Assembly: GCF_001592935.1 (NCBI RefSeq)
Contig: NZ_LRDB01000012.1
Coordinates: forward strand, 1-64,000
DNA: 64,000 nt
DNA from: Roseivirga echinicomitans
GTDB lineage: Bacteria > Bacteroidota > Bacteroidia > Cytophagales > Cyclobacteriaceae
Direction: 5' to 3'
Part shown: positions 1 to 64,000 of the stretch, piece after piece
Layout of the letters: each line of letters opens with the position of its first letter
How positions within the stretch are numbered: the first letter of the stretch is position 1
Made by a program: the position numbers and the translations under genes
Notes under the pieces: model-generated
Databases searched by the model: none
Told to the model about the DNA's origin: nothing
The model's input: only the letters and a program-made list of their open reading frames with translations

Positions 1-597
1 AATGTCATCAGGGTTAATCCTATTAATGTTTCCGCTAAAAGGAACACCATCAACGACTATGAAAGGTTCGTTACTTCCGTTAACTGAACCAATACCTCTT
101 AATCTGATGGCAGGGCTAGAACCAGGCTGACCTGTTGCTGTCGTTACTTGAATACCAGGGCCAGAACCACCAAGTGCAGAAATTGCACTAGTAATTGGTC
201 TGTCTTTGATTTTCTCAGCTGAAAGCGATGTCACAGAACCTGTGATACTCTTTGCGTCTTGAGTTCCATAAGCAACTACTACTACTTCACCTGCGTCAAT
301 AATGTCAGGTACCATTGACACGTTAATTGTGGTTCTGTTACCTACAGGTTCTTCTTTGGTTTTGTAACCTAAGTACCTGAATACAAGAACTGCATTCTCA
401 GCATTCACTGATAGTGAGAATTTACCGTCCGATTCTGTGGTTATTCCAGTGGTTGTTCCCTTAATGGAAACCGTCACGCCTGGAAAGCTAGAACCGAATT
501 CATCAAGCACAGTACCCTCCACGGTACGTTGCTGGCCCATTACACTGCTACTAACGAGTAGCAAAATGAGCATTAATTTTAGTTTAAATTTTTGCAT
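1..597 (-). CDS. SusC/RagA-family TonB-linked outer-membrane receptor (5' part only)
   Basis: The first 199 codons of an outer-membrane active-transport receptor; the rest lies beyond the left edge. The ATG is at 597-595. A signal peptide (MQKFKLKLMLILLLVSSSVMG) is followed by QQRTVEGTV, the start of a carboxypeptidase-regulatory-like domain (about residues 23-100) with the usual DEFGSSFPGVTVSIKGT signature. After GEVVVVAYGTQ the TonB-dependent plug begins (about 125 onward), with the typical RLRGIGSVNGSNEPFIVVDG. These features are characteristic of SusC-type receptors, which import oligosaccharides or peptides with a SusD lipoprotein; no SusD is visible here and the substrate cannot be inferred. 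The reading frame stays open to base 1, so this is a gene cut by the window and not a pseudogene. Energy would come from a TonB protein such as those at 57.5-60.5 kb. Confidence 0.95.
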   Translation of the reverse strand, partial: MQKFKLKLMLILLLVSSSVMGQQRTVEGTVLDEFGSSFPGVTVSIKGTTTGITTESDGKFSLSVNAENAVLVFRYLGYKTKEEPVGNRTTINVSMVPDIIDAGEVVVVAYGTQDAKSITGSVTSLSAEKIKDRPITSAISALGGSGPGIQVTTATGQPGSSPAIRLRGIGSVNGSNEPFIVVDGVPFSGNINRINPDDI

Positions 598-57455: not shown

Positions 57456-57484
57456 AAAAGGCCTGCTTTCACAGCAGGCCTTTT
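57456..57484. terminator. Bidirectional terminator between yicC and tonB array
   Basis: A perfect 12-bp stem (57456-57467 with 57473-57484, 5-nt loop) with A- and T-runs on both sides, between convergent genes. Confidence 0.92.
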
Positions 57485-57497
57485 TCGTTGTTTGAGG

Positions 57498-58163
57498 TTA
57501 ATTGAGTTTGAAATTAATGGTTACACGCCTTGGTGATTTCACTGGAACCCCTCTCTGTTGACCAGGATTCCAGCGTGGCGATTTGCTGAGTACACGAATG
57601 GCTTCCGCATCGCAGTCTTTACTAATGCCTCTCAATACTTTTAGATCAGAAATATCTCCATTGGCGGCTACAAAGAAAGTCAATACTACCTTTCCTTCTA
57701 TTCCCATCCTTTGAGCGTTTCGCGGATACTTGAAATTCTTATTTAGGAACTTACCCCATGCTTCGGCTCCCCCAGGAAAGGAAGCTTGCTTTTCCATTAC
57801 AATAAATGGGTCCTCAGCTTTTTCTGGTTTTTTGGCAATAACTTCAGTGGACTCAATATTTAGAAAATCTAATGGGTGTACTTCATTAATAAATATGACT
57901 GTTTCATTGAGTTCCTCTTCATTTGGAATCTCTAACAATACTGGCTGTTGAATAATAGGCTTTGGTGGTTCTATAATTGTGATTGGAGGCTCATCAAAAC
58001 CATGTAGACTATCTGTTTCGTATGATATGACTGGAGGCGCTGCTGGTATGGTCTTGTACTCAAAAGCGGCTAGGCTAAGTCCCGTGCTAATGCACAATCC
58101 AATGAAGAGGAAAAGAGGTCTTTTTTCTTGAGTATCTAATTGTGCGTTTTTTTTCACTTCCAT
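57498..58163 (-). CDS. TonB-like energy transducer, paralogue 4 (most divergent)
   Basis: A 221-residue inner-membrane anchored protein: a short cytoplasmic start, a transmembrane helix (RPLFLFIGLCISTGLSLAAF, about 15-34), a proline-rich stretch (EPPITIIEPPKPIIQQP), an acidic middle with less charge than its relatives, and a TonB C-terminal domain (about 128-221) with NKNFKYPRNAQRMGIEGKVV and PRWNPGQQRGVPVKSPRRV. It is the last transcribed of the four copies and the least alike. TonB passes energy to outer-membrane receptors; no ExbB/ExbD pair is adjacent. A terminator follows. Confidence 0.9.
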   Translation of the reverse strand: MEVKKNAQLDTQEKRPLFLFIGLCISTGLSLAAFEYKTIPAAPPVISYETDSLHGFDEPPITIIEPPKPIIQQPVLLEIPNEEELNETVIFINEVHPLDFLNIESTEVIAKKPEKAEDPFIVMEKQASFPGGAEAWGKFLNKNFKYPRNAQRMGIEGKVVLTFFVAANGDISDLKVLRGISKDCDAEAIRVLSKSPRWNPGQQRGVPVKSPRRVTINFKLN

Positions 58164-58217
58164 GTTATGACTGTTTAAAATTAAAATGAGTACAAATTCT
58201 ATAAATGGGTTTATAGT

Positions 58218-58892
58218 TTACTTTAAACCAAACTTGATCTGAATGGCCATTCTTGACTTTACTGCAACCCCTCTTTGTTTTCCAGGGCTCCATTTTGGCG
58301 ATGATTGAAGTACTCTTATGGCTTCTTCATCACATCCGCCTCCAATGCCTCGGGTTACGACTATGTCGGAAATGACACCATTTGCATCAACTACAAATGA
58401 TAAGTGTACAGTACCTTCAATCCCCATTTTCACTGCTTGACGAGGATATTGAAAGTTCTTGTTTAGAAATTTACCCCATTCACCCCAACCACCAGGGAAC
58501 TTGGCATTCTCTTCGACAAACAGAAAAATTTCATCAGCCACTTCTGCTTCGGGTTCCGCATCAAAAACTAGGTTCTCGACCTCTGTATCTTCTGTAATGT
58601 CTACATCTAAGTTGATTTCAATGGTTTCATCGATTTCCTCATCGTCTGGAATGGGAACGATTTCTGGTTGTTGAAGAGGAGGAGCTTTCGGAGGTGGCTG
58701 TTCTGTAGGTGGAATCTCTATTAAATCGTCAAAATCAGTCATGGCCATGCCCAGGTCCATTAGTTCACCTTTTTCATATACCCTCCATTCAAATGCGATA
58801 AAGGTAAGGCTGAGACTAATGAGCAGGCCGATGGCTAAGAATAGAGTGGACTTTTTATTCAAGTCAGCCGAAGGAGTCTTTTTTGTTTCCAT
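58218..58892 (-). CDS. TonB-like energy transducer, paralogue 3
   Basis: A 224-residue member of the array. Its transmembrane helix is LFLAIGLLISLSLTFIAFEW (about 17-36), its linker is proline-rich (IEIPPTEQPPPKAPPLQQP) and then acidic (IPDDEEIDETIEINLDVDI), and the TonB C-domain has FPGGWGEWGKFLNKNFQYPR, KMGIEGTVHLSFVVDANG, GGGCDEEAIRVLQSSPKWSPG and AIQIKFGLK at the end. It is nearest to paralogue 2 by eye. No terminator separates it from paralogue 4 (54 bases), so those two may share a transcript. Confidence 0.93.
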   Translation of the reverse strand: METKKTPSADLNKKSTLFLAIGLLISLSLTFIAFEWRVYEKGELMDLGMAMTDFDDLIEIPPTEQPPPKAPPLQQPEIVPIPDDEEIDETIEINLDVDITEDTEVENLVFDAEPEAEVADEIFLFVEENAKFPGGWGEWGKFLNKNFQYPRQAVKMGIEGTVHLSFVVDANGVISDIVVTRGIGGGCDEEAIRVLQSSPKWSPGKQRGVAVKSRMAIQIKFGLK

Positions 58893-58947
58893 AATTTATT
58901 TGTTTTTCATTAGTTAAAACTAAAAGCGTAGTTATTAATGATCTGAA

Positions 58948-58970
58948 AAAGCCCAATGTACTTGGGCTTT
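58948..58970 (-). terminator. Terminator of tonB paralogue 2
   Basis: A perfect 9-bp stem (58948-58956 with 58962-58970, 5-nt loop) directly after the stop of the gene at 58974-59642; T-run on the minus strand. Confidence 0.85.
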
Positions 58971-58973
58971 AAG

Positions 58974-59642
58974 TTATTTTAGTCTGAACTTAATTCTGAT
59001 GGCCATTCTTGATTTAACCGCTACACCTCTTTGTTTTCCTGGAATCCATTTCGGAGAAGCTTTAAGTACTCGAATGGCCTCCTCATCACATCCACCCCCA
59101 ATGCCTCTTATTACTTCAATATCTGAGATCGCACCATTAGCATCAACTACAAAGGCAAGGTCTACAGTCCCTTCGATTCCCATTCGTTGTGCTTGACGAG
59201 GGTATTTCAAATTGTCATTTAGGAATTTGTTCCATCCATTTCCTGGGAATGTGGCTGGGTCCTCTACGATTAAGAAGGGCTCATCTGAAACTACCTCATC
59301 AGCTTGATCTTCAAAAACGAGGTCCTGGATTTCAGTTAGTTCCGTAATATCCACATCGATATTGATTTCAATATCCGCATCAATTTCCTCGTCATCTGGT
59401 ATTGAAACAATGACTGGTTGTTGAATAGGAGGGGCTTTTGGTGGTGGTTGTTCGGTGGGTGGGATTTCGATTAGGTCATCAAAATCGTTTAAGGCCACAC
59501 CTAAGTCCATAAGGTCACCTTTTTCGTGCTGCTTCCATTCGAAGGCAGCAAATGTGATTCCAAGGCTGGCTAACAGGCCAATAGCAAGAAACAGGCTTGA
59601 TTTCCTGTTGATATCTGCCGAAGGAGATTTTTTAGCTTCCAT
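58974..59642 (-). CDS. TonB-like energy transducer, paralogue 2
   Basis: A 222-residue member of the array, from the ATG at 59642 (a longer frame to 59708 would add residues absent in the other copies). It has the shared opening KKSPSADINRKSSLFLAIGL, a transmembrane helix (about 16-35), a proline-rich IPPTEQPPPKAPPIQQP, an acidic DDEEIDADIEINIDVDI, and a TonB C-domain that ends with AIRIKFRLK. The FPGG segment of the others is PGNGWNKFLND here, two residues shorter. Its own terminator follows. Confidence 0.93.
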   Translation of the reverse strand: MEAKKSPSADINRKSSLFLAIGLLASLGITFAAFEWKQHEKGDLMDLGVALNDFDDLIEIPPTEQPPPKAPPIQQPVIVSIPDDEEIDADIEINIDVDITELTEIQDLVFEDQADEVVSDEPFLIVEDPATFPGNGWNKFLNDNLKYPRQAQRMGIEGTVDLAFVVDANGAISDIEVIRGIGGGCDEEAIRVLKASPKWIPGKQRGVAVKSRMAIRIKFRLK

Positions 59643-59756
59643 AGTTTTATAATTTAAGATTGAACATGTCTTCTCACTTTTCTTAAAAGAGTAGCCTTTC
59701 AAGAACAACTAACTAAAGATACTCAATATAAAACTAAAAAACTAGTTAATAAATAA

Positions 59757-59782
59757 CTAAAAAAGCCCAATTAGATTGGGCT
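59757..59782 (-). terminator. Terminator of tonB paralogue 1
   Basis: A 7-bp stem (59764-59770 with 59776-59782, 5-nt loop) followed by six T on the minus strand, after the stop of the gene at 59791-60465. Confidence 0.8.
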
Positions 59783-59790
59783 CTTTAATA

Positions 59791-60465
59791 TTATTTAAGT
59801 TTGAAGAGAATTCTGATTGCCATTCTTGACTTCACAGCTCTTCCTCTTTGTTTTCCAGGTGTCCATCTTGGAGATGATTCCAATACTCGAATTGCTTCAG
59901 CATCACAGCCTCCACCGATTCCTCTTGTTACAGTAATATCTGACAGTTTACCTTCCTTGTCCACAACAAAGGATAAGAATACTGACCCTTCAATTCCCAT
60001 TCTTGAAGCTGAACGAGGGTACTTCAAATTTTTCTGTAAGAATTTATTCCACTCAGCATCTCCGCCAGGGAATTCAGCATTGTCTTCAACGATTAGGAAA
60101 ATTTCATCTCCTACTTCCTCTTCAGGCTCTTCTTCAAAAACAATTTCTTCTACCTCTTGCTCTTCGGTGATTTCCACATCCAAATTGATCTCGATTTCTT
60201 CTTCGATCTCCTCTTCATCAGGAATCTCAATAATTTGAGGTTGCTGTTTTACGGGAGGTGGGGGAGGTGGTTGTTCGGTTGGTGGGATTTCAATTAAATC
60301 TTCAAAATCGTCAGTTGCCATACCCAGGTCCATCAACTCACCTTTTTCAGTTTTCTTCCATTCAAAGGCAGCGAATGTTACACCAAGGCTCACAAGCAGG
60401 CCTATTGCTAAGAATAGGCTGGACTTTTTGTTCAAGTCTGCTGACGGAGTCTTTTTAGCTTCCAT
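59791..60465 (-). CDS. TonB-like energy transducer, paralogue 1 (sprA-linked)
   Basis: A 224-residue protein and the first of the four to be transcribed. It opens KKTPSADLNKKSSLFLAIGL, has the membrane helix at about 17-36, then polyproline PPTEQPPPPPPVKQQP, a strongly acidic middle (DEEEIEEEIEINLDVEI, EEEPEEEVGDE) and the TonB C-domain with FPGGDAEWNKFLQKNLKYPR and SPRWTPGKQRGRAVKSRMAI. In the usual rod, E. coli TonB has Pro-Lys repeats instead of the acidic middle. It follows vanZ by about 54 bases, with a 9-bp palindrome between. Confidence 0.94.
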   Translation of the reverse strand: MEAKKTPSADLNKKSSLFLAIGLLVSLGVTFAAFEWKKTEKGELMDLGMATDDFEDLIEIPPTEQPPPPPPVKQQPQIIEIPDEEEIEEEIEINLDVEITEEQEVEEIVFEEEPEEEVGDEIFLIVEDNAEFPGGDAEWNKFLQKNLKYPRSASRMGIEGSVFLSFVVDKEGKLSDITVTRGIGGGCDAEAIRVLESSPRWTPGKQRGRAVKSRMAIRILFKLK

Positions 60466-60499: not shown

Positions 60500-60524
60500 A
60501 TTAGTTTGGTATTCGCAAACTAAT
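60500..60524. promoter_or_regulatory. Palindrome overlapping the vanZ stop, upstream of tonB
   Basis: A perfect 9-bp inverted repeat (ATTAGTTTG 60500-60508 with CAAACTAAT 60516-60524, 7-nt loop), 35 bases upstream of the tonB ATG and covering the vanZ stop. No T-run follows, so it may be an operator instead of a terminator. Confidence 0.45.
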
Positions 60525-60888
60525 ATCTCATAAAAGTAGAAAAAACTACGACACCTACAATAGCTCCAATTGTATTTGCGAGCAAATCGTATATATCTGT
60601 CATTCTACCAGGAACAACGGACTGCAATGATTCCAAAATCAATCCATAAACTACGCATATAGTTAACGAATTCCATAGGTATTTGTTTTCAAGTCGAACT
60701 TTGCCCTTGTTATTTCTTTTACCCCAAAGGACTAAAAAACTTAGAATTCCAAAGACACCCAAATGGGCTATTTTGTCATAGGAAAGTAATTTAGACTCGG
60801 GAAAAGAATCTTGTGGCAACAACATTAATACTGCCAAAACTATGGCCCAAGATACGCTGGCCCAATATTGTTTTATAAACGAGCGCAT
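60520..60888 (-). CDS. VanZ-family membrane protein
   Basis: A 122-residue protein with four transmembrane helices: AIVLAVLMLLPQDSFPESKL (first helix and loop), KIAHLGVFGILSFLVLWG with the conserved KxxH, then a helix near 66-84 and GRMTDIYDLLANTIGAIVGV with the DxxxNxxG signature. VanZ-like proteins occur in many bacteria and their role is largely unknown. The order sprA-gcvH-vanZ-tonB is a common Bacteroidota arrangement (from memory). It is 14 bases after gcvH. Confidence 0.92.
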   Translation of the reverse strand: MRSFIKQYWASVSWAIVLAVLMLLPQDSFPESKLLSYDKIAHLGVFGILSFLVLWGKRNNKGKVRLENKYLWNSLTICVVYGLILESLQSVVPGRMTDIYDLLANTIGAIVGVVVFSTFMRY

Positions 60889-60902: not shown

Positions 60903-61283
60903 CTATTGACCAATTAATGCTTTATAACTAGCGGCATCCATCAGGCCTTCAACTTCCGAAGGATCACTCATGGTGATTTTGATCATCCAACCTTCTCCGT
61001 AGGGATCAGAATTCACTATTTCCGGAGCATCTTCAAGCTGGCTATTAAATTCTTTTACTTCACCCGAAAGCGGCATGAATAAATCAGAAACGGTTTTTAC
61101 AGCCTCCACTGTACCGAATACTTCTTCTTTGTCAAGCGAATCTCCTTCTGTTTCAATTTCAACATAGACGATATCGCCTAGTTCGCTTTGCGCAAAATCA
61201 GTAATCCCAACTGTTGCTTCATTTCCTTCAACCTTTATCCACTCGTGATCTTTGGTATACAATAAGTTTTCTGGTATGTTCAT
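60903..61283 (-). CDS. gcvH: Glycine cleavage system H protein
   Basis: Carries the lipoyl arm between the P, T and L proteins of glycine cleavage. The 126-residue protein has the normal length. The lipoylated lysine is K63 in [20 protein letters not shown]; other marks are [33 protein letters not shown] and [11 protein letters not shown]. It has a TATTTTTG box upstream, so it can be made apart from sprA. gcvT is 20 kb away and gcvP is not in the window. Confidence 0.98.
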
Positions 61284-61337: not shown

Positions 61338-64000
61338 TTATTGAGACAAACTAAACCTAACTCTTCCACCAAAGGCAGTTCTAGCATTTAAGAAGCTCGT
61401 AGTCACTCTTGGTTCGTTTATATTTTTTTCAAAATAGAAGGCAACTTGAAGCGCATCGCTCACACTGTATTCTAATGTTGGACTTAGTTGGAAGATTTTT
61501 ATTCCTTCGGTAACAATGCTTGATTCGCCAATTCTTCGCTGAACGGTTTTGTTATCGCGTAAGCTAAAAGTCATGTTAAAGCGCAATTCGTTAGGAAGGG
61601 TTTCTTTTCTTCCTCTAATCCTGAAAGGAATTTTTACCCCGGCTTTGGTATAGCCCAAGGTTACACTGATATCATTTGCCGATCGTTCTGTAACTTGAAT
61701 ATTGGACAGGTTAAGCGCAATGTTTCTTTCTTTGGAGTAATTGACGTCTAGGTTCCAACTACTGGTAGTCTTCAGGTTTATTCCTACAAGCGGAGAGAAT
61801 TTCTCTGTAAGCACCACTTGCTGCGAAGTGAAAATAGGCACCAAATTACCGTCTTCATTGAACTGATCTGCCAAACCATAATCGTTGAGTTGATTCTCCA
61901 AAGTAAGGTTGGATGTATACAGGGCTGAGTTGATGTAATTACTCACACTGTACTGACTGCTGTAGGAATGGCTAATACTCACTGTACTGAAGAGTTCTTT
62001 TATGGCATCAATTTTTGTTAGACCACGGTAGTTCAAGGCCCAGCCTGGAATGGGAAGCCGAGGGAAGGCTGAGGTCTTGATTTCATCTGGGCTTTGGCCT
62101 GAATAGGCCGCTAAAAATGCTGGAATCACAACGTCCTGCGAATTGACATCATAATTTCCTGTATCATTAGATTGATCTAATCTCGATTTTAAAATATTCC
62201 TGTAGGTTTCAAAATTGGCAAATAGAGGTGAGTCATCATTGTTATTATCTTTTTCAAAAGATGTTTTGAACATATTGTAAGACACAATATAAGTACCTGT
62301 TCGATTTGGATTGATGCTTAAGAACTCACCTGCTACATCATCACGCCTAAATATTTCCTGATAGTTTTCGGAATGTGTTTTTCTTCCTGTTAGCGTCACC
62401 CTAAAATCGCCAAAAGGTTCTAATACCGTAGAGTAGTTGAAGCTCATGTTTTTATCTTGGGTGAATGGAGCGGTCAGGAATGTACTCTGAGCATATAGTC
62501 CATCTCTAGCAAGTTGTGTACGAATGGCAGCGTCTTGGCTACCTACAATGAAGCCGAGACTTGGACTCGTCATCTCTTTATCTAGCCCAAAAAGGAAAAC
62601 ATCAGGCATATAACCAGGCAAAACCGTTCCTTGGGCTACTGAGTAATCAAATGTGGCACTTCTCACCATCATTACTGCCCTGAGTAAGGCCTTGAGCGCG
62701 GGCATCTGATCAATGGTCTTTTTTTGTTTGATTGAGTCGTTTGTTGCTAATCCAGTAGGGCGGGACCTGCTTCGGGTAGGGGAGTTGATTTTCTTTAACA
62801 GCCCAATGTTGTTGTATATCTTCTGAAAATCAATCTTACCATTCAACTTGACAACGCGTGTGTTACCTGCGTAATTGCCTAAAGTATCGGCTTGACCAAT
62901 GGCGCCAGCTTTCCAATTGTAAGTGGAAGCATAACTTAGGGTAGAGTTTAGCCAGTTCGTGACTGGAATTTTCTCAAAGGGTAGGGTATAGCTTGAATTG
63001 ATGGTGTGCGTGTAATTCTTTATTCTTCCAAAGTTTTTGAAGTTGGTCCAAACGGAGTCCTTTTTTATGTCTGTATTAATATCACCCTCTGGTTCATCAA
63101 TAATGGCATTTACGTTGGCAAAGTAATCCAATGTTAAAGCTTTAGTCAGGTTCCAGTTTACGGCATAACTTCTATCAAAAGTGAATGATTTTTCAAAATA
63201 TGGGTCTATTCCGTCCGTGTTGAGGTCGGAGTTTCTTAACTGGGTTTTGAGGAAGCTTCGGTTTACATTTCCATTGACGGTAATAGAGTTTGGTACCACA
63301 TTGAAATTGACATCTTTAATAACTTGAAGCCATTTGGAACTCAAGAACCCTATGTTTTTAAACGGTTCAATAAACCACTCTTTAGGTTGATAACTGTAAG
63401 TGACAGCTCCCCGGTAGTTTTTGTAATCATAAGAAGCGGTGTTGATATTGCTCCTAGTTATTTCATTGTAGGCGTAAGTGAAACTCAAGTTTTCTATATC
63501 ATAAATGCGCTTTGGTGCATCTGCGTCTACTCTTCTTTTTCGGACATTAGAGAAGTTGAAACTCCTTCGTTTAGATTGATCCACCACCTTGTCATAGTAG
63601 GTGTCTCGTTCTTCCTTAGACTCAAAAGAGTTAAGCACATCTTCAAGAGGCAAATCAGGGTCGAGAGGGTCGTATTGTGGTACGGCCCGTGAATTCTCTA
63701 AACTGAGATAGGCAGGAAGCTCAATTCCCCAATTTTCTGGAAAGAACTTGCCTAGTTTAAGACTAGTAGAGATATCATACTGCGTAGTGTTTTCTCTACT
63801 TCTTTCAGAAATTTTATCTGCGATTCCGCCAAAGCCAATAGATGAATGTCTTACTGATGCTGAGACGTTCCCGAAATCGGCCAACTGAGCATCGAACCTT
63901 GCATTAGCTGCGATTCCTGATTTTGAGTCAAAATCTGTTACCCGAAGTTCGTTGGCCCAAATACAGAAACTCTTTGGTTCCAAATCTGGTGAACTTGGGT
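61338..64000 (-). CDS. sprA: SprA/Sov outer-membrane translocon of the type IX secretion system (3' part)
   Basis: The C-terminal about 887 residues of the very large barrel that forms the T9SS pore; the family is roughly 2400 residues, and the start is beyond the right edge. The frame is open to base 64000 (a TTG at 63983 is only an internal codon). Typical content: IWANELRVTDFD near the left end, then long runs of alternating beta-strand patterns such as NFNVVPNSITVNGNVNR, GFIVGSQDAAIRTQLARDGL, and the C-terminal strands LEYSVSDALQVAFYFEKNIN and FGGRVRFSLSQ. It is upstream of gcvH, vanZ and the tonB array. With PorV and PorU it makes three T9SS components in this window. Confidence 0.95.
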   Translation of the reverse strand, partial: PSSPDLEPKSFCIWANELRVTDFDSKSGIAANARFDAQLADFGNVSASVRHSSIGFGGIADKISERSRENTTQYDISTSLKLGKFFPENWGIELPAYLSLENSRAVPQYDPLDPDLPLEDVLNSFESKEERDTYYDKVVDQSKRRSFNFSNVRKRRVDADAPKRIYDIENLSFTYAYNEITRSNINTASYDYKNYRGAVTYSYQPKEWFIEPFKNIGFLSSKWLQVIKDVNFNVVPNSITVNGNVNRSFLKTQLRNSDLNTDGIDPYFEKSFTFDRSYAVNWNLTKALTLDYFANVNAIIDEPEGDINTDIKKDSVWTNFKNFGRIKNYTHTINSSYTLPFEKIPVTNWLNSTLSYASTYNWKAGAIGQADTLGNYAGNTRVVKLNGKIDFQKIYNNIGLLKKINSPTRSRSRPTGLATNDSIKQKKTIDQMPALKALLRAVMMVRSATFDYSVAQGTVLPGYMPDVFLFGLDKEMTSPSLGFIVGSQDAAIRTQLARDGLYAQSTFLTAPFTQDKNMSFNYSTVLEPFGDFRVTLTGRKTHSENYQEIFRRDDVAGEFLSINPNRTGTYIVSYNMFKTSFEKDNNNDDSPLFANFETYRNILKSRLDQSNDTGNYDVNSQDVVIPAFLAAYSGQSPDEIKTSAFPRLPIPGWALNYRGLTKIDAIKELFSTVSISHSYSSQYSVSNYINSALYTSNLTLENQLNDYGLADQFNEDGNLVPIFTSQQVVLTEKFSPLVGINLKTTSSWNLDVNYSKERNIALNLSNIQVTERSANDISVTLGYTKAGVKIPFRIRGRKETLPNELRFNMTFSLRDNKTVQRRIGESSIVTEGIKIFQLSPTLEYSVSDALQVAFYFEKNINEPRVTTSFLNARTAFGGRVRFSLSQ

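Follow-up and report, generated by a model that had tools for sequence, protein, structure and literature searches.

The sprA locus of Roseivirga echinicomitans raises the question of why a genome should carry four genes for TonB, the rod-like protein that energizes the import of nutrients across the outer membrane, directly in a row. The window analyzed here is a stretch of 64,000 nucleotides of contig NZ_LRDB01000012.1. Along its minus strand, from ∼64 to 57.5 kb, transcription passes in order through the 3′ part of sprA, encoding the translocon of the type IX secretion system (T9SS) (61338-63983; TIGR04189, 763 bits; the gene runs past the window), gcvH (60903-61283; PF01597), a vanZ-family gene (60520-60888; PF04892), and four tonB genes, after which lies the convergent yicC. 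We refer to these copies as c1, the sprA-proximal one (59791-60465; 224 aa), c2 (58974-59642; 222 aa from the ATG at 59642), c3 (58218-58892; 224 aa), and c4, the last and divergent one (57498-58163; 221 aa). An earlier note on this DNA had described them as four tandem TonB-like genes of 221-224 aa at 57498-60465, and this description holds for this member of the Cytophagales: the four ORFs are intact and co-directional, and all pass the cut-offs of PF03544 (67-71 bits against 24.6) and TIGR01352. The literature searched contained nothing on this locus. At the opposite end of the window (1-528, minus strand), the contig starts within a gene for a SusC-type receptor. We consider it probable that the four proteins are ordinary TonBs whose gene was duplicated repeatedly and long ago, with c1 as the main copy and the distal copies as auxiliaries, and that the size of the array reflects birth, loss, and conversion of genes rather than receptors.

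In the AlphaFold model of c1, a single helix at residues 9-46 leads into a linker modeled as disordered, after which comes a well-predicted C-domain, and the sequence pattern of this single N-terminal inner-membrane helix is the same in all copies. The best Foldseek hits of c1 were TonB C-domains, and the top PDB match was the TonB C-domain bound to FoxA. Each TonB of the array accordingly consists of an inner-membrane helix, a disordered periplasmic linker that is first rich in proline and then acidic, and a C-domain of the type that holds outer-membrane transporters by their TonB box. Judged from sequence and model, c1-c4 are ordinary TonB energy transducers, with the binding of the TonB box predicted from the family of the C-domain.

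The linkers contain a PPTEQPPPP-type stretch (12-15% Pro) and an Asp/Glu-rich middle, in which these two residues make up 39% in c1, 29% in c2, 33% in c3, and 21% in c4. The earlier note had presented such acidic linkers as distinctive, taking E. coli as the standard. The acidic middle is indeed present, but we rejected it as a peculiarity of the array, since the linkers of other sprA-linked proximal or single copies average 34% Asp+Glu; unlinked TonBs of the lineage average 28%. Within Roseivirga, the value is 40% for the c1 copies and 25% for the last copies. Acidity of the linker therefore characterizes this Bacteroidota TonB lineage as a whole and is most pronounced in the conserved copy. 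E. coli is an unsuitable reference, because reports of the oppositely charged Pro-Glu/Pro-Lys rod are limited to Enterobacterales, Pasteurellales, and B. pertussis (PMC12204202). E. coli TonB and the Roseivirga copies share the anchor, a proline-containing linker, and the C-domain fold, but the former has the oppositely charged rod, whereas c1-c4 have a Pro/acidic linker and an anchor devoid of the His found in E. coli TonB/TolA. The anchor His is a subtype feature and does not define the TonBs of Bacteroidota. After the anchor, the segments FEDLIEIPP (c1) and PPITIIEPP (c4) resemble the published ExbD-binding D-box pattern, with no exact match. The presence of several TonB homologues in one genome, as here, is attributed to Bacteroides thetaiotaomicron in the work of Pollet (2023) as cited in PMC12204202.

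The array is not a chance feature, because synteny at the locus is conserved in every one of the 15 Roseivirga genomes examined; the order sprA-gcvH-vanZ-tonB also occurs in many Cytophagales and in Flavobacteriales and Bacteroidales. In a more distant family of the same class (L189, L201, L202, and L204), two to three tonB-type genes follow sprA-gcvH-vanZ, in some cases with an additional ∼700-aa protein with a TonB-type match, and tandem tonB genes at this locus are therefore not confined to Cytophagales. Such linkage to sprA could mean that these TonBs energize the T9SS by acting on SprA itself or on the plug of this translocon, a function also raised in the earlier note. It would fit this idea that all 15 Roseivirga genomes keep the arrangement, as do 9 of the 22 Bacteroidia sampled outside the order, but the complete set is missing in the remaining 13 of these 22 and in all 18 sprA carriers sampled beyond the class. 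The same cluster contains gcvH, which is not known to have a role in the T9SS. Furthermore, the T9SS already has a motor of its own, being driven by GldL/GldM (PMC8986121). From these genomic comparisons, action of the array on SprA appears highly improbable. Elsewhere in the neighborhood, one genome (G007) has a 351-aa ORF between sprA and gcvH (L050, 7854-8909), and the vanZ gene of the window (60520-60888) shows an unusually low silent divergence from its counterpart in G004 (L047; pS 0.22, with 0.40-0.73 for its neighbors), possibly as a result of interspecies recombination.

With respect to the history of the copies, c1 shares 72% identity with c2, 74% with c3, and 45% with c4, which agrees with the earlier view of copies 1-3 as alike and of copy 4 as divergent. 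Several of the trees have long branches, which, like gene conversion, can distort topology. The copies from Roseivirga group together in a single clade (95/95.7); the array therefore goes back to a single gene in the lineage of the genus and is a true paralogous array, as had been assumed, not a set of four unrelated TonB types. A single clade of distal copies was rejected both across genera (p-AU 3e-6) and within Roseivirga (p-AU 2.5e-4), and therefore duplication recurred. Synonymous sites between the copies in the window are saturated, which rejects the recent expansion that had been proposed. We suggest that the tonB gene at the sprA-gcvH-vanZ-tonB locus of Bacteroidia has duplicated in tandem, repeatedly and anciently. 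Orthologues of c4 are the last copies in G004, G006, and G007, and those of c2 are the middle copies in G004 and G006, whereas c3 has no orthologue in G004 and G006, the two closest genomes. Since c3 branches outside the c2 group, the sequences make loss in these two genomes more likely than gain in this one.

The fluctuating size of the array, the faster evolution of the distal copies, and the lack of a c3 orthologue in two sister genomes are what would be expected if the distal copies were neutral relics, that is, redundant duplicates heading to loss. However, the distal ORFs are intact although their synonymous divergence is high or saturated, and their dN/dS values, where measurable, are ∼0.04-0.17. 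They have therefore long been under selection, and we regard decay toward loss as very unlikely.

The earlier note had proposed testing whether array size varies with the number of SusC-type receptors. Among the genomes searched, which are a sample of species, array size ranges from 1 to 4 copies (mostly 3) in the 15 Roseivirga genomes and from 1 to 3 in other Cytophagales; R. thermotolerans (L064/L141) has two. With receptor number taken as the count of plug domains, copy number showed no relation to it in 14 Roseivirga genomes (Spearman -0.25, p 0.38), G009, the sole single-copy Roseivirga genome, being excluded at 84% completeness. Plug domains numbered 28-67 per genome; the genomes with 56 and 67 have 3 copies, and both 4-copy genomes have only 29 and 30. 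Array size would thus be set by birth, loss, and occasional gene conversion, independently of receptor number.

The copies are not equivalent. In 37 of 40 multi-copy loci (14/14 in Roseivirga and 23/26 elsewhere), which are not fully independent, so that an exact p-value is not to be leaned on, the proximal copy was nearest to the single-copy relatives; the references had been collected through their resemblance to proximal copies, which may favor the latter, while outside Roseivirga array position played no part in the choice. In the exceptions (L089, L096, and L114), the second copy is the conserved one. The dN/dS ratio was 0.03 for c1 versus 0.11 for c4. The silent divergence of c1 is below that of yicC and sprA, and codon bias is stronger in c1 than in the distal copies at 14/14 loci, which together fit high expression. 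The proximal copy would accordingly be the main, well-expressed TonB, held under strong purifying selection, and the distal copies auxiliaries that keep the receptor-binding end while evolving faster in the anchor and linker. The loss of identity in the distal set amounted to 0.17 for the anchor, proline stretch, and acidic linker versus 0.06 for the C-domain, a pattern seen in 49 of 54 copies; among the Roseivirga proximal copies it is reversed, with conservation of 0.90 in the linker and 0.76 in the C-domain.

This distribution bears on the proposal, made in the earlier note, that the copies pair with different receptors. In its specific form, each copy would serve a separate set of SusC-type or siderophore receptors. 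Paralogous TonBs with distinct receptor roles are known (HasB; TonB1/TonB2 of Riemerella anatipestifer), and purifying selection (dN/dS well below 1) keeps the copies of the array. Serratia HasB is, like the array copies, a duplicated TonB, but it differs in its specialized role, which is to serve the hemophore-dependent heme system. Pairing predicts change in the C-domain, yet this receptor-contacting part is the least changed in the distal copies, and array size does not follow receptor number (mostly 3 copies across 28-67 plug domains). The proposal is weakened by these results, and we consider it unlikely. The simplest reading is one main TonB with auxiliary variants that share receptors and would be distinguished by how far they reach, how they couple to the motor, or how they are expressed. 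The concentration of divergence in the anchor and linker, with the receptor end spared, directs attention to the motor side of TonB, which is rarely examined.

Adjacent tonB paralogues exchange sequence in related arrays, as judged from long identical tracts that are clear at L074 and L090. Copies 1 and 2 share an identical run of 196 nt at the former and of 192 nt at the latter, within surroundings of ∼50% codon identity; the converted tracts cover codons 58-123, in the linker, at L074 and codons 153-216, in the C-domain, at L090. A signal of gene conversion was also found at L046. Within the window array, where the longest identical run is 17 nt, we saw no recent gene conversion. We raise as a tentative and rather doubtful idea that recurrent tonB duplication at the sprA locus yields an unchanged receptor end and a retuned motor/rod end, with conversion refreshing parts of the copies. 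If this were true, transducers that differ in their reach or in their coupling to the motor could all serve one set of receptors. Taken together, the array is real and orderly and mostly a matter of ordinary gene-family evolution. The locus offers a clean natural series (1-4 copies at one site, with a conserved reference copy) for testing why Bacteroidota keep several TonBs.

Separate terminators after copies 1 and 2 had been noted previously, and we likewise located terminator-like hairpins on the minus strand after c1 (59760-59786; z -5.0) and after c2 (58948-58970; family D5). Among the intergenic regions of the array, none was found after c3, and a terminator common to c4 and the convergent yicC lies at 57456-57484 (strand not assigned). 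The regions after c1 and c2 are homologous (78% identical over 54 nt), and the terminators were therefore co-duplicated with the gene. A terminator follows the proximal gene at 10 of the 14 multi-copy Roseivirga loci. Individual control of the copies, as suggested in the earlier note, is partly supported by these proximal terminators and by the codon bias of c1, but a search between the array genes for the Bacteroidota-type promoter TTTG...TAnnTTTG gave no match. The intergenic terminators may allow the distal copies to be expressed less or separately.

Which motor the array uses is a related question, as no exbB or exbD gene lies beside it, in agreement with the earlier observation. A search of the rest of the genome, which had been recommended, recovered an orphan exbB-exbD-exbD operon and a separate exbB-exbD operon. 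The former, with the order exbB-120aa-exbD-exbD and no tonB, is on the same contig (G000:C12, ∼178.5-180.8 kb), while the latter houses a TonB-like protein with the anchor His. In 30 loci elsewhere, no array-type tonB was found beside an exbB-exbD-exbD motor; a TonB_C gene was next to the motor in 3 of the 30, in each case for a secreted protein of another type. The array TonBs probably run on the orphan exbB-exbD-exbD operon, by analogy with R. anatipestifer, in which TonB2 sits with an exbB-exbD-exbD motor and TonB3 is encoded by a tonB without its own exbBD (PMC4446302). Like the array copies, TonB2 and TonB3 are Bacteroidota TonBs, but their genes are single, unlike those of the Roseivirga array (PMC4446302). 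The TonB3 gene is not beside sprA but is flanked by a permease-family gene and an ATPase gene, and because the neighbors differ we rejected it as a syntenic orthologue.

TonB_C matches occur at ten places in the genome. Those inspected outside the array read in sequence not as anchored TonBs but as a lipoprotein-like protein, one fusion each of the BlaR1 and anti-sigma types, and secreted proteins. A lipoprotein-like protein (G000:C49, 267.7-268.2 kb; L005, 1294-1803) has a TonB C-domain without an inner-membrane anchor, and similar anchorless, lipoprotein-like TonB_C proteins were seen at L228, L229, L230, L232, and L233. From their sequence, they are possible periplasmic or outer-membrane competitors of TonB or regulators of receptors. 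Their C-domains are up to 62% identical to those of the array, and in congeners one to four such genes are clustered, some of them encoding proteins with two C-domains.
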